Assembly: GCF_038008685.1 (NCBI RefSeq)
Contig: NZ_JBBOZQ010000001.1
Location: forward strand, 1,240,001 to 1,304,000
Reading direction: 5' to 3'
DNA length: 64,000 nucleotides
Source: Lysinibacillus sp. FSL W8-0992
GTDB lineage: Bacteria > Bacillota > Bacilli > Bacillales_A > Planococcaceae
Made by a program: the position numbers and the translations under genes. Below are positions 1,220 to 44,647 of this stretch, in pieces (the first letter of the stretch is position 1; each line of letters begins with the position of its first letter). A model generated the notes under the pieces. That model saw only the letters and a program-made list of their open reading frames with translations, did not search any database and was not told the DNA's origin.

Positions 1220-1509
1220 TTTACAATTAAAAACCCTTTTTAATAATATCCCCCTCAATTAACTTGCCCCTTGCAATACTCCAATAACTGAATAATAGTT
1301 GTTTTTTTCAAGTATATCACTTTTACATATAATGGGTAATATAGGACTGGTTTGGATATGTAATCATTAAAACTAATTCGTCAATTCAGCATAATGAATG
1401 TATACAGCAAAACAATAAGAAAATCTTAAGAATTGGTGCATGCGTTTGTTAAGATTTACTTAGTATTATATCCTTAGACGAATCCTAAAGAGATGGAGGA
1501 GTGAATGCA
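1220..1509. other. Intergenic region before the two-component operon
   Basis: No gene seen. It should contain the promoter of the response regulator. AATCTTAAG (around 1423) and TTAAGATTT (around 1449) form a separated inverted repeat that could be an OmpR-type operator; this is weak evidence because both are short and AT-rich. Confidence 0.35.
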
Positions 1510-2196
1510 GTGAACATTTTGATATGTGATGATGATAAAGAAATTGTAAGGGCTATTAGTGTTTATTTAGAAAACGAAGGCTATCAAGTATTCAAAGCTT
1601 ACAATGGTATAGAGGCAATCGAACTTGTTCGAGATCAAGTTATTCATCTAATTATTATGGATATAATGATGCCAAAAATGGATGGCATTACGGCAACAAT
1701 GAAGATTCGGCAAGATAATATGATTCCGTTAATTATGCTTTCTGCTAAGTCGGAGGATTATGACAAAATACTTGGATTAAATATTGGAGCAGATGATTAT
1801 ATGGGCAAGCCGTTTAATCCATTAGAACTTGTCGCTAGGGTGAAATCGCTGCTAAGAAGGTATACGGCTTTTGGCAGTCTTGAGGTGAGTAGTAATATAT
1901 TTCAAACGGGTGGTCTTATGATTGACGATGAAAAGAAAGTCATTACCGTTGATAACCAAGCGGTTCATTTAACTCCAGTGCAGTATAAAATTTTAAAGCT
2001 TCTTACAGCAAATACGGGGAGAGTATTCACAATCGAAGAGATTTATGAAAAGGTATGGAATGAAAGTGCCATTAATCCAGAAAATACGGTGGCGGTACAT
2101 ATTCGGAAAATTCGAGAGAAAATTGAAATTAATCCGAAAGAGCCGAAGTATTTAAAAGTTGTATGGGGAGTGGGATATAAAGTTGAAAAATATTAG
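1510..2196 (+). CDS. OmpR/PhoB-family response regulator
   Basis: A 228-residue two-domain regulator. The receiver domain (1-115) shows the acidic pocket DDD near residue 8, the phospho-acceptor Asp51 in IIMDIMMPK, and the conserved Lys in GKPF. The C-terminal half is a winged-helix DNA-binding domain ending in VVWGVGYK. GTG at 1510 is chosen over GTG at 1501 because GGAGGA ends at 1500, which leaves a 9-nt spacer for 1510 and none for 1501. The next gene, its kinase partner, overlaps the 3' end. Target genes cannot be read from the sequence. Confidence 0.9.
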   Translation: MNILICDDDKEIVRAISVYLENEGYQVFKAYNGIEAIELVRDQVIHLIIMDIMMPKMDGITATMKIRQDNMIPLIMLSAKSEDYDKILGLNIGADDYMGKPFNPLELVARVKSLLRRYTAFGSLEVSSNIFQTGGLMIDDEKKVITVDNQAVHLTPVQYKILKLLTANTGRVFTIEEIYEKVWNESAINPENTVAVHIRKIREKIEINPKEPKYLKVVWGVGYKVEKY

Positions 2197-4228
2197 TCAT
2201 GCACTTATTACGAAAGTTATTGTGTTTCTAATTGCCATCGCTTGTTTAACTGGTACTGCGAAGGTAATTATCAACATGGAATTAAATGAAGTTTATCTTA
2301 GTAGTATCAATCAAGACAATTATTTTGAAAGTATAGCATTCGCCGATGAAAGTTATAGCCTTATTAGCTCTTTAGCACAATTAATCGGAACATATAAAAG
2401 TGAAGAGTATATTTTAAGTGGTAAGGCACTTACAAAAGAAGAAATGAGAGAAATGGAAGAAGAATTATATAATGATTTCCAATATTCATCTAAATATAAT
2501 GGGAATTTGAGTGAGGTGGAAAATAGAAAGATATATCAAGAAGCATATGCAGATGATATACAAAGTAAAAAAGAAGAACGCATACGAGAACAAGTACGAG
2601 TATTCTATCGTTTACTCAGCGCATTAGATGCATATGACGGAATCGTATATTACGCGAGTGATGGTGAACATGTATTCTCTAATAGTGAACTAAATAAGAA
2701 AGAGCAATTTGCATCATTTGGTGCATATATGCAATTTGCGAATTATCAACAAAAGCTTTATCCAAATGAAATGAAAAAAAATAAATACTTAGATTACATT
2801 ACACAAGATGTTGAAATGTTGAATCCGCAAACAGATGCTATTTATGTGGCATATAAAGAATCTTACTTAGAGCAAAAAATGCAAGAATGGGAAAAAAATA
2901 AAGAGGTTGCTAAAAGTTATCTTAATGAATTCATTTTATTTCTGGTAGGGTTTATTGTATCTTTTGTTTATTTAGTAATAGTTATTGGAAGAACTTCATT
3001 TAAAGATAAAGAAATGCATTTTTCTGTTATTGATAAACTATATAATGATGTCAATATTGTCATAGTCGCTGGTTTAACAGGGTTGTGGGTGGCAATGATT
3101 GTTGAGGTGTTACGTGAAATGAACATTCTTCTCACGGTACCTATTTTTATTATTGCCTTACTAATGATTTTATCGCTTATCAAGCATATTAAAAATAGAT
3201 CACTACTTCAGCACACTGTTATATATCAAATCTTCAAAAAGATTTTTATTGGGATAAAACATGTTTTCGATAATGGCAGTACGGCTGTGAAAATTGTGCT
3301 TCTTGTTATTGGTTATCCTTTAGTAGCTGCGGCGACGTTTTTCATGTTTCCTATTACGCTAGGCTTAGCTGCTTGGTTTGCGTTGAAAAAGGTGAAGTCG
3401 TTTAATCGCATTAAAGAGGGCGTCGAGCAAATTAAAAATGGGGACCTTCATCATCGAATTGATATAGATGGAAAAGGAGAGTTTAGCCAACTTGCAGCGA
3501 ATATTAATAGTATTACAGATGGCTTAAAAAAATCGGTGGATAGTGAGATTAAAAGCGAGCGTTTAAAAACAGAGCTTATTACGAATGTTTCGCATGATAT
3601 CCGAACGCCTTTAACATCAATTATTACGTATGTCGATTTATTAAAAATAGAAAAAGACCCTGAACTAATTGCTGAATATATAGACGTATTAGATCAAAAA
3701 TCGAAGAGACTCAAGCACTTAACCGATGATTTATTTGAAGCGGCTAAAGCGTCAAGTGGCAGTATACCTGTGCAGTTAGAACGGATTGATATCGTAGCAT
3801 TACTAAAGCAAGGGATAGGGGAAATGGGTGAGAAAATTGAAGCGGCATCATTAAACTTTAAGTTAGCCCACCCTACAGAAAAAGTGTATGTGAAAGCTGA
3901 TGGTAAACTCCTATGGCGCTCCATCGAAAACTTATTCTCGAATATTTTTAAATATGCACTGCCTGCATCGAGGGTATATATTGATGTAGAAGATATAGGA
4001 AATGAACTACTCGTAACATTTAAAAATATTTCAGCATATGAATTAAATATTTCCGTAGATGAGCTAATGGAACGTTTTACAAGAGGCGATGAATCAAGAT
4101 CAAGTCAAGGTAGCGGATTAGGCTTATCGATTGCTGAAAGCCTTATTCACATCCAACACGGTAAATTTTTAGTGCAAGTAGATGGCGATTTATTTAAGGC
4201 AATGATTTATTTGCCGAAATTTGAATGA
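2183..4228 (+). CDS. Large multi-TM sensor histidine kinase
   Basis: About 681 residues. An N-terminal TM helix is followed by a ~210-residue charged extracytoplasmic region, then four or five hydrophobic segments (residues ~245-395), a HAMP-like linker, a DHp helix with the phospho-acceptor His near 470 in SHDIRTPL, and an HATPase domain with N-box (ENLFSNIFKY) and G-box (GSGLGLSIAESL). TTG at 2183 is preferred: it follows GGGGAG and overlaps the regulator's stop by 14 nt, a usual coupled arrangement; an earlier TTG at 2159 lies inside the regulator. The many TM segments after the sensor region are unusual for an EnvZ-type kinase. Ligand unknown. Confidence 0.88.
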   Translation: MKNISHALITKVIVFLIAIACLTGTAKVIINMELNEVYLSSINQDNYFESIAFADESYSLISSLAQLIGTYKSEEYILSGKALTKEEMREMEEELYNDFQYSSKYNGNLSEVENRKIYQEAYADDIQSKKEERIREQVRVFYRLLSALDAYDGIVYYASDGEHVFSNSELNKKEQFASFGAYMQFANYQQKLYPNEMKKNKYLDYITQDVEMLNPQTDAIYVAYKESYLEQKMQEWEKNKEVAKSYLNEFILFLVGFIVSFVYLVIVIGRTSFKDKEMHFSVIDKLYNDVNIVIVAGLTGLWVAMIVEVLREMNILLTVPIFIIALLMILSLIKHIKNRSLLQHTVIYQIFKKIFIGIKHVFDNGSTAVKIVLLVIGYPLVAAATFFMFPITLGLAAWFALKKVKSFNRIKEGVEQIKNGDLHHRIDIDGKGEFSQLAANINSITDGLKKSVDSEIKSERLKTELITNVSHDIRTPLTSIITYVDLLKIEKDPELIAEYIDVLDQKSKRLKHLTDDLFEAAKASSGSIPVQLERIDIVALLKQGIGEMGEKIEAASLNFKLAHPTEKVYVKADGKLLWRSIENLFSNIFKYALPASRVYIDVEDIGNELLVTFKNISAYELNISVDELMERFTRGDESRSSQGSGLGLSIAESLIHIQHGKFLVQVDGDLFKAMIYLPKFE

Positions 4229-4238
4229 TGCAGCAAAG

Positions 4239-4273
4239 GAATAGGATGCGTAAGTGTATCCTATTCTTTTTTC
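4239..4273 (+). terminator. Terminator after the histidine kinase
   Basis: 9-bp stem GAATAGGAT/ATCCTATTC with a 10-nt loop and a run of six T. Confidence 0.88.
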
Positions 4274-4333: not shown

Positions 4334-4362
4334 TTGACTTCTGCTAATAAGTTCGTTATAAT
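4334..4362 (+). promoter_or_regulatory. Sigma-A promoter of the exporter leader
   Basis: TTGACT (4334-4339), a 17-nt spacer and a perfect TATAAT (4357-4362). Predicted start near 4369, about 670 nt before the exporter's start codon. This is the best promoter match in the window. Confidence 0.8.
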
Positions 4363-4402
4363 TCGTTGTGTATAAAAAATGCTTTAAGGAGGATGTTAGA
4401 AA

Positions 4403-4435
4403 ATGACACTAAAATTCCCAACTTTGAACCAGTAA
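4403..4435 (+). CDS. Possible 10-residue leader peptide (MTLKFPTLNQ)
   Basis: AAGGAGG at 4386-4392 is an ideal ribosome binding site, 10 nt before ATG at 4403; the frame runs ten codons to TAA at 4433. It sits ~34 nt from the predicted transcript start and just before a first terminator-like hairpin (4448-4498). Short leader peptides in this position control several antibiotic-resistance genes (ermC, cat, cmlA, msrD, bmrCD) by drug-induced ribosome stalling. A second frame, ATG at 4393, touches the Shine-Dalgarno and is less likely. That this peptide is made or stalls is inference. Confidence 0.5.
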   Translation: MTLKFPTLNQ

Positions 4436-4447
4436 TTGAATACTGTC

Positions 4448-4756
4448 AAAGGCTCTGTTTGTGTATGCAGAGTAAATGGAATTAGTCAGTCCTTTTTTAA
4501 TTATCTTCATTTCATATTGTGAAATTGTTATTTACCAAATTTCATTAATTGTTCCCACTTAGTTGTGAGGGCTAGTTATATGTAATGAAAGAAAGGCGAC
4601 TTGTTTTTCCTTTCTTTATTTTTGTCTACTTTAACCTTTTATTTGGTTTACCAAAGGTAGGTTTCTTGTTCTTACTGACAACTTAATGAAATATGGATGG
4701 TTTTTTCCCTTTACTTTTATGATCACAGGCAGGTGCTTGTGATCTTTTCGTTTTTT
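4448..4756 (+). promoter_or_regulatory. Candidate transcription attenuator in the exporter leader
   Basis: Three terminator-like hairpins lie between the leader peptide and the exporter. (1) AAAGG...CCTTT at 4448-4498, enclosing a CTCTG/CAGAG hairpin and followed by six T, imperfect. (2) AAAGAAAGG/CCTTTCTTT at 4588-4617, followed by ATTTTTG. (3) GATCACAGGC/GCTTGTGATC at 4721-4744 with a 4-nt loop, followed by TTTTCGTTTTTT, strong. ACCTTTT (4635) and AAAGGT (4653) could give an alternative pairing. Transcription from 4369 must pass all of these to reach the exporter, the layout of an attenuator. Confidence 0.5.
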
Positions 4757-5037
4757 AAGCGGGATACAATGATAAAGGTTCTTGTTTTAACTGAGCTTAA
4801 TTTGCATATGCTCCCGTTTTCCGTTGGGTAGAACAATTGCTATTACTGGGATGGTTGATGAGGTAATGATTTGGGTAAGATTGGTTTTGGATATCATTTT
4901 GTTGTTTATTCAATCCTAGGTTAGTTTGATATTAACTAAGAAGGGAGCAATTCTTAATCCAATGTTCTGCTCGATAACGGAATATTTTTAAAAAAGAAAA
5001 GTTCACCAAAAAATACATGCTAGTAAGGAGTAATTAA

Positions 5038-6516
5038 ATGGAACAAAATCAATCTATAAAATATGAATTCCTATCACAAGATCCTAACGTTAAAACATTA
5101 CCGATTATGCTGTCGTTAATTATCGGTGCTTTTTTTGCAGTTTTAAACGAAACATTGTTAAACATTGCATTAACGACATTAATGCATGAGTTCCACATTA
5201 CTTTGCCAACTGTTCAGTGGATGGCAACAGGGTTTATGCTTGTAATGGGGATAGTTATTCCAATTTCCGCCTTGATGTTACAGTGGTTTACAACAAGGCA
5301 ATTGTTCATTGGTGTTATGGTCACTTTCACAATTGGAACAATCATTTGTGCAATTGCGCCTAGCTTTCCCGTTTTATTAGTAGGTCGATTAATTCAAGCA
5401 ATTGGAACAGGGCTATTGATGCCGATTATTTTTAATGTTTTTTTATTATTATATCCACCAGAAAATCGCGGGAAAATAATGGGGATAGTAGGTTTGATTT
5501 TTACGTTTGCACCTGCAATCGGACCGACTTTATCTGGTGTTATTGTTGAATATTTAGGCTGGCGCTATTTATTTATTATTGTTATTCCTTTCGCCTTATT
5601 TTCAATTGTTTTTGCTTCTAAATATTTAACAAATATTTCGGAGGTCACAAAACCGAAAATTGATGTTCTGTCTATAATCTTTTCAACGATTGGCTTCGGG
5701 TCAATTATTTACGGGTTTAGTGCTGCTGGAGAAAAAGGTTTCCTTAGCCCAAGTGTATTTGTGACGATTATTATCGGAATCATTGGTGTTGTATTATTCT
5801 CTTTAAGACAGTTTAAGCTAAAAGAGCCTGTTATGAATTTACGAGTATTTAAATATCCAATGTATACACACGCAGTATTAATGTTTTTAATTATTATTAT
5901 GGCAATGTTTGCATCGGAAATCATTTTACCAATATTTATGCAAGGTCCATTAGCCTTGACTGCAGCAGCGGCAGGACTCGTTCTACTACCTGGGAGCTTG
6001 CTAAATGGACTAATGTCTCCATTCATGGGGCAATTGTTCGATAAATTTGGCCCCCGTGTATTGATGATTCCTGCAACACTTGTATTAAGTGGTACAGTCT
6101 TTACGTTAAGTAGGTTAACAGCTGAAACACCTATTTGGATAATCGTATTATGCTATATTTTATTAATGCTTAGTGTTTCTGCGATTATGATGCCTGCGCA
6201 GACAAATGGTTTAAACCAATTACCTAAATCTTTATATCCACATGGCACTGCGGTTATGACAACTTTGCAGCCTGTTGCAGGTGCAATTGGTGTTGCTGTT
6301 TTTATTAGTATTATGAATGCCAGACAAAATCACTTTTTAACAAATGCGACCAATCCGAGTGATCCGGCTACAATTAGCCAAGCTATGGTTGCTGGTGTAG
6401 AACTTGTGTATCTTATTGCTTTTGTAATAACGATATTAGCGATTATTTTGTCATTTACGGTTTACCGTGCGGTTCCAAAAGAAATGATTGAAACACAATC
6501 AGACTCTAAATCTTGA
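5038..6516 (+). CDS. DHA2-family MFS multidrug efflux pump, LmrB-like
   Basis: 492 residues with about 14 hydrophobic segments, the size of the EmrB/QacA (DHA2) drug:proton antiporters. The stretch from ENRGKIMG through FAPAIGPTLSG to GWRYLF is the motif-C region typical of antiporters and closely resembles Bacillus LmrB (lincomycin/puromycin efflux). TAAGGAG lies 7 nt upstream of ATG 5038. It acts in the cytoplasmic membrane; the substrate is not readable from sequence. The 670-nt leader with a mini-ORF and terminators suggests induction by a translation inhibitor. No TetR-type regulator (as LmrA for LmrB) is adjacent. Confidence 0.88.
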   Translation: MEQNQSIKYEFLSQDPNVKTLPIMLSLIIGAFFAVLNETLLNIALTTLMHEFHITLPTVQWMATGFMLVMGIVIPISALMLQWFTTRQLFIGVMVTFTIGTIICAIAPSFPVLLVGRLIQAIGTGLLMPIIFNVFLLLYPPENRGKIMGIVGLIFTFAPAIGPTLSGVIVEYLGWRYLFIIVIPFALFSIVFASKYLTNISEVTKPKIDVLSIIFSTIGFGSIIYGFSAAGEKGFLSPSVFVTIIIGIIGVVLFSLRQFKLKEPVMNLRVFKYPMYTHAVLMFLIIIMAMFASEIILPIFMQGPLALTAAAAGLVLLPGSLLNGLMSPFMGQLFDKFGPRVLMIPATLVLSGTVFTLSRLTAETPIWIIVLCYILLMLSVSAIMMPAQTNGLNQLPKSLYPHGTAVMTTLQPVAGAIGVAVFISIMNARQNHFLTNATNPSDPATISQAMVAGVELVYLIAFVITILAIILSFTVYRAVPKEMIETQSDSKS

Positions 6517-10592: not shown

Positions 10593-11192
10593 GAGTGCCT
10601 GACATTTAGCTTGCATAGGACGACTCCTAAATGGGAAAAATCCACTACTCTTTCCGCGGGCACGACGTAAGCCGCAACCCTCGCTGACGCGCGGCTTGTT
10701 GCGTCTTACAACTCGTGCTGTGCCCGCAGGAGTCTACGTAGATTTTTCCTTAGCGTTTCAAAAAATGCAAGGAAATTGTTTGAGTGCCTGGCACCGCGCA
10801 TCCGTACCTAGTACAGTATCGACTTTTAAATCGGAAAAATCCACTACGCTTTCCGCGGGCACGACGTAAGCCGCAACCCTCGCTGACGCGCGGCTTGTTG
10901 CGTCTTACAACTCGTGCTGTGCCCGCAGGAGTCTAGGTGGATTTTTCCTTAGCGTTTCAAAAAATGCAAGGAAATTGTTTGAGTGCCTGGCACCGCGCAT
11001 CCGTACCTAGTACAGTATCGACTCCTAATGGGAAAAATCCACTACGCTTTCCGCGGGCACGATGTAAGCCACAACCCTCGCTGACGCGCGGCTTGTTGCG
11101 TCTTACAACTCGTGCTGTGCCCGCAGGAGTCTAGGTGGATTTTTCCTTAGCGTTTCAAAAAAATGCAAGGAAATTGTTTGAGTGCCTGGCAC
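10593..11192 (+). repeat. Array of three 198-bp tandem units: long palindrome plus GAGTGCCTGGCAC tag
   Basis: Three long palindromes (10636-10747, 10835-10946, 11033-11144) alternate with four copies of a short tag (GAGTGCCTGACAT at 10593; GAGTGCCTGGCAC at 10782, 10981 and 11180). Units repeat every 198-199 bp with almost no change, including the linker GCATCCGTACCTAGTACAGT. Each palindrome starts AAAAATCCACTA and ends in the matching arm, and its arms pair over most of ~110 nt (CGCGGGCACG against CGTGC-GCCCGCAG, GTAAG against CTTAC). The array lies between convergent genes. Confidence 0.9.
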
Positions 11193-11216
11193 CTCATCTA
11201 TCTTCATAAAAAAGAC

Positions 11217-11244
11217 AAAAGGCATCAAGTTTTTGATGCCTTTT
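11217..11244 (-). terminator. Terminator of the NRPS-PPTase operon
   Basis: AAAAGGCATCAA/TTGATGCCTTTT, a 12-bp stem with 4-nt loop. On the minus strand it is followed by GTCTTTTTTTA, so it ends the 15083-11263 operon; on the plus strand the tail is poor. Confidence 0.85.
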
Positions 11245-11262
11245 GCCATACGCTGAGCAAAG

Positions 11263-11916
11263 TTATAGAAGCTGATGTCTATTCAAAAAGGTTAAATTTA
11301 TATGTGATGTGCGATCCCAGCAGATGGATACAGGGTGTCGTTCATCAAGATAAATAAGCTGTGTAGAAATGTTTTGAATTTCATCCGTCGTATCGATTAA
11401 GTGTGGTGATGGCTGTGGACATAAGGCAGTTTTAAAGAGAGCTTCCTTTAATGTCCACAGTTCATAAAATTTTTTTAATCGTAGCGGTTCTACAATTTCG
11501 TCAATGCTAGTTATTTCATTCTCTGTCATGGCATAGTGCATAACATCTTTCGTAACAGGCTTAATTTCCTCCACATCAATACCGACATGACCATTTTCCG
11601 TTACTGCTATGACAAGCCAATCTCCTGAATGGGAAAGATTAAAATCACCTCTCCAACCAACATCTCCTACAACATAAGGCCGACCATATTCGTTTCGAAC
11701 AATCTGTACCTCTTGTGTAGCAGTCAATTGCTGAATTGCCCATCTGGAAATAATGCTTCCTAATAAGGCTCGTTGTCGGTCCTGCCACTGTTGGTATTGC
11801 AATATCCTGATTTGCTCATCAGGAGGCAGTTGCGCATAATACTTCGCCCATTCAAATGCTGTGAATTGTGGTCCAATGGGGAGTGCAAATACTTGTACGC
11901 CATTGAAACTTAACAT
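11263..11916 (-). CDS. Sfp-type 4'-phosphopantetheinyl transferase
   Basis: 217 residues, the usual Sfp length. It carries the two signature motifs, VGIDVEEIKPV (Mg2+ binding Asp/Glu) and FYELWTLKEALFK. It transfers the phosphopantetheine arm of CoA to a Ser of a carrier protein. Its ATG at 11916 shares one base with the TAA stop of the upstream NRPS-like gene (TAATG), so the two are translationally coupled; the obvious client is the carrier domain of that enzyme. It may also serve other carrier proteins. Confidence 0.92.
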   Translation of the reverse strand: MLSFNGVQVFALPIGPQFTAFEWAKYYAQLPPDEQIRILQYQQWQDRQRALLGSIISRWAIQQLTATQEVQIVRNEYGRPYVVGDVGWRGDFNLSHSGDWLVIAVTENGHVGIDVEEIKPVTKDVMHYAMTENEITSIDEIVEPLRLKKFYELWTLKEALFKTALCPQPSPHLIDTTDEIQNISTQLIYLDERHPVSICWDRTSHINLTFLNRHQLL

Positions 11917-31294: not shown

Positions 31295-31317
31295 CGTCAT
31301 AATTTTAAAATTTCAGA

Positions 31318-31495
31318 AACTAATGGTGTGACGCTTGTTAACAAGTGCCACTTAAAAGGGAAGTCGGTGTAAGTCCGACGCTGTCCCGCAACTGTAACGA
31401 GGAGTTCTATGATGTAGTAGCCACTGTTTTTAGAATGGGAAGGCAATCATAGTAACGTTGAATCGAAGCCAGGAGACCTGCCAATTAGTTCATAC
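31318..31495 (+). ncRNA. Cobalamin (adenosylcobalamin) riboswitch aptamer
   Basis: The conserved blocks occur in order: AAAAGGGAA near 31352, GGTGTAAGTCCGACGCTG, CCCGCAACTGTAA near 31383 and GCCAGGAGACCTGCC near 31468. It binds cobalamin and shuts down the downstream genes. A terminator 70 nt further supplies the off state. Confidence 0.95.
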
Positions 31496-31565
31496 CTGTA
31501 ATGCCCACGAGGATGCAAGCAATTACGGACAATTGATGGATACTTCTCCAACTTTGTTTAACCTA

Positions 31566-44544: not shown

Positions 44545-44647
44545 TTCTTATCGAGAGAAGCCGAGGGACTGGCCCTATGAAGCTTCAGCAACCAACTAAT
44601 GTCAGGTGCTAAATCCAGAAGACCTTTTTGGTCGAAGATGAGAAGGA
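44545..44647 (+). ncRNA. SAM-I (S-box) riboswitch
   Basis: Canonical blocks: TTATCGAGAGAAGCCGAGGG, ACTGGCCCTATGAAGC, TTCAGCAACC and AGGTGCTAAATCC, ending with GATGAGAAGG. SAM binding terminates transcription of the methionine genes downstream. Confidence 0.96.

Follow-up and report, generated by a model that had tools for sequence, protein, structure and literature searches.

A probable ErmD/ErmK-type transcription attenuator with an altered leader peptide ahead of an LmrB-like pump gene in Lysinibacillus

The closest described system is the ErmD/ErmK attenuator of Bacillus licheniformis. In the passages of PMC4335068 that concern it, erm(K) is controlled by transcriptional attenuation; its leader peptide reads MTHSMRLRFPTLNQ, and two Rho-independent terminators lie next to each other. 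Table 3 of that paper gives the start of the ErmK peptide as MTHA, and a PubMed Central search finds MTHAMRLR in the same paper. The mef(E)/mel attenuator of Streptococcus (peptide MTASMRLR) resembles our leader in that an efflux gene is under leader-peptide transcription attenuation. According to PMC4335068, however, its RNA has no discernible homology with erm(K) except in the peptide, and this peptide has the Arg-X-Arg motif associated with macrolides. The hflXr/rli80 system of Listeria also uses transcription attenuation, there with a 14-aa uORF containing RLR (PMC6310831), but its target gene is another one and the motif is present. The vmlR and bmrCD leaders of Bacillus subtilis, likewise in Bacillales, subject drug-resistance genes to uORF-dependent transcription attenuation, as described in part of PMC9226507, with uORFs that differ from the one considered here. 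The comparisons with rli80, vmlR and bmrCD are by description, not by sequence.

The window, that is, the whole stretch of 64,000 nucleotides (64 kb) analysed from Lysinibacillus sp. FSL W8-0992, contains a 672-nt leader between a promoter and the gene for an MFS drug exporter (Table 1). We propose, with a probability of roughly 0.85, that this leader descends from the ErmD/ErmK type, that its sensor peptide has been altered, and that it controls the pump by ribosome-dependent transcription attenuation. The ErmD/ErmK-type attenuator is known; the variant with an altered peptide before an MFS pump is new. The original prediction had already suggested ribosome-dependent attenuation. Homology, conservation and a modelled switch now stand behind it, and from these we infer the stall itself, the termination and the read-through.

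Table 1. Features of the pump leader and its surroundings, in positions of the window.
Feature	Positions	Strand	Evidence and remarks
Sigma-A type promoter, TTGACT-17-TATAAT	4334..4362	+	Consensus scan, 11/12 consensus; both hexamers identical in 5/5 pump leaders
Shine-Dalgarno sequence of leader ORF, AAGGAGG	4386..4392	+	10 nt 5' of ATG
Leader peptide ORF, MTLKFPTLNQ, 10 codons	4403..4435	+	Sequence, congeners, comparison with ErmK peptide MTHSMRLRFPTLNQ (PMC4335068)
T1: ORF start 4404-4419 paired with 4478-4492 (GGAATTAGTCAGTCC), then T6 at 4493-4498	4404..4492	+	Folding
Switch element AGTCAGTCCUUUUUU	4484..4498	+	Part of closed T1; pairs with T2 5' arm in the modelled stalled form
Terminator T2, AAAGAAAGGCGAC...CCTTTCTTT, then ATTTTT	4588..4617	+	Folding; counterpart in ermD locus L104
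Weak additional hairpin	4633..4663	+	Weaker than the other hairpins
Terminator T3, GATCACAGGCAGGTGCTTGTGATC, 10 bp, T-rich tail TTTTCGTTTTTT	4721..4744	+	Terminator scan; counterparts AATCACAGGCAG in ermD, RlmA-type and Mef loci
Spacer, poorly conserved, from T3 to pump ribosome-binding site	4758..5024	+	Congener alignment
LmrB-like DHA2-family MFS drug exporter, 492 aa	5038..6516	+	RBS AAGGAG 5025-5030; profile search

The layout read from the letters by the original prediction can be retained. The consensus promoter, the AAGGAGG sequence with its 10-codon frame and the leader of about 670 nt are where it had placed them, and for the "two or three" terminator-like hairpins, the last with a 10-bp stem and a T-tail, the analysis places T1, T2, the weak hairpin and T3. 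A consensus scan for a second promoter on the + strand (at least 9/12 consensus) between 4363 and 5037 gave none. Scans of this kind carry little weight by themselves: promoter-like sites numbered 9 against 15.6 in shuffles, showing no excess, and in this AT-rich stretch a simple terminator scan passed T3 only, one found against 2.1 expected in shuffles. Since such counts do not rise above the shuffles, they prove nothing, and it is conservation and the homology to ermD that carry the case. The 672-nt leader as a whole does have a better fold than any of its 20 shuffled versions (z -2.64). Immediately upstream, VanR/VanS-like two-component genes (1501-4228) are followed at 4239..4272 (+) by a terminator-like hairpin and T-run, read from the sequence and absent from the scan list, which probably separates the pump unit from them.

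When bases 4370-4520 of the window (151 bases) were compared with plasmids by blastn, 25 records matched, 14 of which were opened. The leader has 86.4% DNA identity, over 77% of the query (E 2e-30), with the B. licheniformis locus annotated as ErmD (L104). Downstream in the 14 records are erm(D) in one, msr(G) together with mef(F) or a different MFS gene in three, an RNA methyltransferase with msr(I) in two, macrolide phosphotransferases in four, an Msr-type ABC-F gene in first place in two and SDR oxidoreductases in the last two, whose leader matches are weak (E 2e-5 and 1e-2). The homology with ErmD/ErmK covers the ORF and the T1 element; counterparts of T2 (AGAAAGGCG...) and T3 (ATCACAGGCAG...) follow one another in the same way in the leaders of the ermD, RlmA-type and Mef loci, and the peptide ends identically in FPTLNQ. 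Homologous leader DNA, a short ORF with this ending behind a strong Shine-Dalgarno sequence, and two predicted Rho-independent terminators between ORF and gene, three of the marks by which we would recognise an ErmD/ErmK-type leader, are thus found, T2 and T3 having their counterparts in L104. A covariance model, R1, gives the leader 130.9 bits, having been built with that leader included. On the other hand, the target is an MFS pump, not a methylase, the T2 hairpin has -8.6 kcal/mol against -16.6 kcal/mol in ermD, and T3 lies about 290 nt from the gene against about 100 in ermD. The ermD frame of L104 (2886-3386) has only 166 aa and is shorter than the 244-position Erm profile. A plasmid record named Stenotrophomonas rhizophila (L107, CP031730) carries a stretch that resembles a plasmid of Lysinibacillus fusiformis both in the order of its genes and in its leader match, and so, probably, does CP065518, a record of the same name among those matched.

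The main difference from ErmD/ErmK lies in the peptide. MTLKFPTLNQ equals ErmDL (MTHSMRLRFPTLNQ) minus HSMR, and it is therefore a relative of a known peptide rather than the unfamiliar one it was first taken for. With HSMR the Arg-X-Arg macrolide motif is gone: MTLKFPTLNQ and the congeneric MTLRF[PQ]TLNQ have one basic residue each and do not contain even Arg/Lys-X-Arg/Lys. The change may reflect a 12-nt loss inside the ORF, or a loss of the first codons together with an Arg-to-Thr change; the alignments fit both. Because the motif is missing, the inducing drug cannot be carried over from ErmD.

Rfam has no match to the leader at gathering level in the 64-kb stretch, nor any at the leaders of L104, L105, L106 and L004 at E up to 0.5, and no leader match occurs in the phage records. 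None of the peptides MTLRFPTLNQ, MTLKFPTLNQ, MIDILTLNR, MTHSMKLR and MTASIRLR occurs in the PubMed Central literature searched, and no paper was recognised there as describing the FSL W8-0992 pump leader, including PMC11264731 and PMC10219788 in the parts that the searches brought up. A riboswitch or a free-standing small RNA was also considered, and dropped because the leader is homologous to ermD.

That the gene after the leader encodes an LmrB-like pump agrees with the original prediction, in a qualified sense: it reaches 529.7 bits against the NCBIfam LmrB profile (NF000060), below the curated cutoff of 800, and is above the cutoff for the DHA2/EmrB subfamily profile. A 91% identical pump is present in L. 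mangiferihumi (L020). The leader DNA occurs in 19 of 32 genomes of the genus, FSL W8-0992 itself included, and precedes the LmrB-like pump in five of them; the same five of the 32 have the pump at 91-100% identity, the other listed homologues being at most 50% identical. In all five pump-bearing genomes the promoter hexamers, the Shine-Dalgarno sequence, the ORF, the T1 element, T2 and T3 are kept, and the roughly 270 nt after T3 are poorly conserved. The leader peptides are MTLKFPTLNQ in FSL W8-0992, MTLRFPTLNQ in L002, L003 and L004, and MTLRFQTLNQ in L005. Codon 4 is AAA (Lys) in the first and CGA (Arg) in the four others, so that two bases have changed and the residue is basic in 5/5. Two observations had been named in advance as fatal to the attenuator, a mini-ORF not conserved in relatives and a separate promoter just before 5038 together with an untranscribed 4369-5038; as far as sequence tells, neither is the case.

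We propose that in the absence of drug the ribosomes would clear the 10-codon ORF, and that the start of the ORF would pair with 4478-4492 and beyond. With T1 closed, the RNA polymerase would stop at T2 or T3. In the presence of drug, a ribosome would be held on the ORF, and the P site would most likely contain Leu3 and the A site Lys/Arg4. T1 could then not close, and the element AGUCAGUCCUUUUUU would be freed and would capture the 5' arm of T2; T3 would fail too, and transcription would reach the pump. In the folds, T1 encloses two small hairpins, at about 4422-4450 and 4453-4473, and in the RNAalifold consensus of 25 leaders the Shine-Dalgarno sequence 4386-4392 and the next bases pair with AUCUUC at 4503-4508. 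This consensus has 22 pairs, three with two-sided changes, and a covariation term of -0.39, which on its own would be weak support for the structure.

Equilibrium folds, from which the RNA 5' of the ribosome edge had been removed, give alternative structures of the kind whose search had been recommended, T2 and, depending on the settings, T3 being lost in the model with a ribosome on Leu3. The probability of T2 in the FSL W8-0992 leader goes from 0.76 in the free RNA to 0.01; when the segment that separates T2 from the ribosome edge was replaced by 200 dinucleotide shuffles, not one gave so large a drop. The free value, though high, is nothing unusual, since 29 of 200 shuffles of the 5' part reach or exceed it. 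For T3 the fall is from about 1.0 to a value that varies with the settings, 0.05-0.34. With successive codons in the P site, its probability is 0.98 (codons 1-2), 0.34 (3) and 0.08 (4), and the drop at codon 4 is matched by 0/100 shuffles. For codons 2, 3 and 4 the values are 0.95, 0.15 and 0.02 in L003, 0.98, 0.27 and 0.03 in L005, and 0.44, 0.01 and 0.01 in L004. Placement of the ribosome edge matters: with Leu3 in the P site, T3 has 0.84 at +13, 0.16 at +14 and 0.07 at +15, and 0.30 at +16 with more downstream RNA folded, while another definition of the hairpin gives a fall from 0.67 to 0.47 only. The modelled codon of the flip is therefore uncertain by about one codon. In all five pump leaders T2 is already down (0.01-0.25) once AUG occupies the P site; T3, whether AUG or codon 2 is there, is still at least 0.95 in FSL W8-0992, L002, L003 and L005, and 0.44 in L004.

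A fourth mark of the ErmD/ErmK type, an alternative structure when the ribosome sits on the stall codon, varies among the leaders modelled. Both terminators fall in FSL W8-0992, L003, L004 and L005; in L002, the closest relative, T2 is lost (0.79 to 0.18) and T3 kept (0.98). In L106, an RlmA-type locus with the peptide MTHFMRLR, T3 stays at 0.72-0.81 through codon 6 and falls cleanly, from 0.75 to 0.02, at codon 7, the published ErmDL stall codon (PMC8298421, in the part dealing with ErmDL). In ermD, T2 never falls (0.97), and T3 drops from 0.90 to 0.06 at codon 1, has 0.18-0.31 at codons 2-6 and 0.00 from codon 7. Since T3 falls at codon 1 already, the model fails to single out the known ermD stall codon. 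No switching was seen in the models of L101, L009 and L097. Altogether 11 leaders were folded, one of which (L103) was left unscored, being without T2 or T3 by motif search, and in 7 of the 10 scored T2 or T3 falls below 0.5. The models thus suggest a switch without proving it, and our confidence in the attenuator was trimmed because of the ermD result at codon 1 and the dependence of T3 on settings.

R1, the covariance model, was made from 25 leaders. It matches in 64 of 200 genomes of the family (12 of 19 genera) and, in the class, in 79 of 398 genomes (44 of 145 genera), the latter set overlapping the former. A first survey has 116 rows, in which some places are counted twice (e.g., L020 and L141). 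In 114 of them tblastn finds a reference gene of resistance type no more than 2.6 kb downstream; of the remaining two, L186 has HflX, giving 115/116, and L161 is degenerate, with no recognised gene. A second survey, of most but not all places matched in the class genomes, found a resistance-type gene downstream in 71 of the 71 loci examined, in L269 and L271 only after 1.0-1.2 kb. In both, HflX and SDR are counted as resistance-type, a role that is unproven for them, and for many Mef-type proteins the identity to the reference is only about 30%. Antisense mirror matches were dropped (19/114 and 6/77 in two match sets, one among the LmrB-like loci), as was L142, a duplicate of L191. Given such neighbours in 71/71 and 115/116 rows, and no Rfam match, the RNA could mark unrecognised resistance genes, the SDR enzyme for example.

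The peptides differ with the gene that follows. Of the 118 distinct peptides that precede Erm, Mph, Mef, Msr-type, RlmA-type and HflX genes, 108 carry the motif, sought anywhere in the peptide, and 10 lack it; before LmrB-like and SDR genes it is present in 11 of 25 and absent in 14 (Fisher p 4e-7, with the relatedness of loci ignored). The peptide table types 60 of the 71 rows of the second survey, 8 repeats and 3 rows without a readable peptide being left out, and 4 of 116 rows of the first have no readable peptide; start codons were chosen by script and may be wrong (e.g., MCIQPD, MKMILLDSEIYVALLTE). Among 80 LmrB-like loci, R1 matches upstream in 12 at E up to 0.001 and in 19 at E up to 1. 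The 19 leaders include 8 with Lys/Arg-Phe-Arg peptides of the MAFIKFRLTTLLG type (L065, L085, L022, L039, L057, L035, L047 and L052), 10 with any Arg/Lys-X-Arg and 9 with none. The LmrB-like pumps of Virgibacillus, Sporosarcina and others have their own attenuator branch, with MAFIKFRLTTLLG-type peptides.

Is the leader of FSL W8-0992 still a working switch? It could be a non-functional relic of an erm-type leader, with the pump expressed constitutively by read-through, as the lost Arg-X-Arg motif and the drifting segment after T3 would allow. We consider this very improbable, since promoter, Shine-Dalgarno sequence, ORF, T2 and T3 are kept in 5/5 species while other segments of the leader drift, and codon 4 stays basic despite a two-base difference. 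If the leader is an attenuator, it may be read in three ways that differ in the drug. Possible, and placed first among them, is a retained sensor of erythromycin-type macrolides that acts without the Arg-X-Arg motif. In the mutant data of PMC8298421, putting Ala in place of Arg6 or Arg8 has little effect on erythromycin stalling at ErmDL; ketolide stalling requires both basic residues there, and erythromycin stalling tolerates losing one. MsrDL and erythromycin-resistance pentapeptides rely on Leu or Ile at position 3 (PMC10314930, where it treats these peptides), and MTLKF has Leu3. Arg/Lys-X-Arg is kept in the 10 of 19 LmrB-like leaders mentioned above. Against this, the N-terminal residues of ErmDL contribute to erythromycin stalling according to PMC8298421, and most of them are gone in MTLKFPTLNQ; moreover, the gene classes other than LmrB-like and SDR keep the motif in nearly all of their peptides (108/118).

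Rather unlikely, and second to the erythromycin sensor, is a sensor retuned to phenicols or oxazolidinones, in which Leu3 would sit in the P site and a penultimate Thr instead of Arg would suit stalling by chloramphenicol or linezolid. By alignment with the stall site in PMC8298421, the loss of HSMR puts Thr at -1 of the homologous stall codon, and the peptides without the motif concentrate at LmrB-like and SDR genes. In the experiments of PMC10552525, chloramphenicol binding gains from an Ala, Ser or Thr at -1 when the peptidyl-tRNA mimic is short; arrest, however, is strongest with Ala and less with Ser or Thr in those of PMC8987054, so that Thr is the weaker context. Furthermore, the L268 peptide MTHSITLRFPTLNQ, ahead of Mef/Msr-type genes, has Thr in place of Arg6 as in the FSL W8-0992 clade. 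Because this Thr stands in a macrolide setting, Thr at -1 need not mean a new drug, and L268 speaks for the erythromycin sensor. Unlikely, and last of the three, is a sensor of early arrest by lincosamides, pleuromutilins or streptogramin A, for which any ribosome held at the first codons would open the switch, whatever the peptide. The pump is LmrB-like, the start codon aligns with Met5 of ErmDL, and in each of the five leaders a ribosome with AUG in its P site is enough to lower the modelled T2. In the account of PMC9226507, lincomycin can induce vmlR through three-codon uORFs (MIN, MDN, MDK, MRK), and hflXr, with its RLR uORF, is induced by lincomycin in that of PMC6310831. The modelled T3, however, persists at the first two codons in all but L004, and the LmrB profile score is below cutoff.

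Since the leader peptide is altered, the ribosome-blocking antibiotics to which the pump responds may in part be other ones. The leader would place an uncharacterised pump under antibiotic-induced control. As some of the related RNAs have the macrolide motif and others lack it, nature provides an experiment on the choice of drug by a nascent peptide. It is tempting to propose, though on balance we find it doubtful, that one switch chassis serves at least eight resistance-type gene classes across Bacilli and is re-aimed at new drugs when no more than the few codons ahead of an invariant stall point change. The macrolide motif would have become Thr-Leu-Lys/Arg in the pump leader of Lysinibacillus, sensing peptidyl-transferase drugs (phenicols, oxazolidinones or lincosamides), and SDR leaders, MIDIL[TS]LNR, would sense another drug, maybe one inactivated by the SDR enzyme.

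An SDR-family oxidoreductase gene is found behind the same attenuator in L110, L111, L159 and L166, with the peptides MIDILTLNR or MIDILSLNR, and in L245, where the peptide is not legible. These loci sit in genomes and on plasmids of Latilactobacillus and Acinetobacter, the latter with an IS26 transposase gene upstream; in L159 the SDR gene is followed by an ABC-F gene with Vga and CplR as best profiles. The oxidoreductase may be an unrecognised drug-modifying enzyme. HflX-type GTPase genes are found behind this attenuator RNA in L186, L217, L234, L238, L239, L250 and L251, and further in L252, L254, L257, L258, L259 and L263; their peptides are mostly RLR-, RFR- or KFR-like, recalling Listeria hflXr. 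Elsewhere in the window, Rfam recognises a cobalamin riboswitch (31307-31499) and a SAM riboswitch (44545-44644), and two small frames at 10937-11357 have the sequence MQGNCLSAWH in common, apparently as a repeat.
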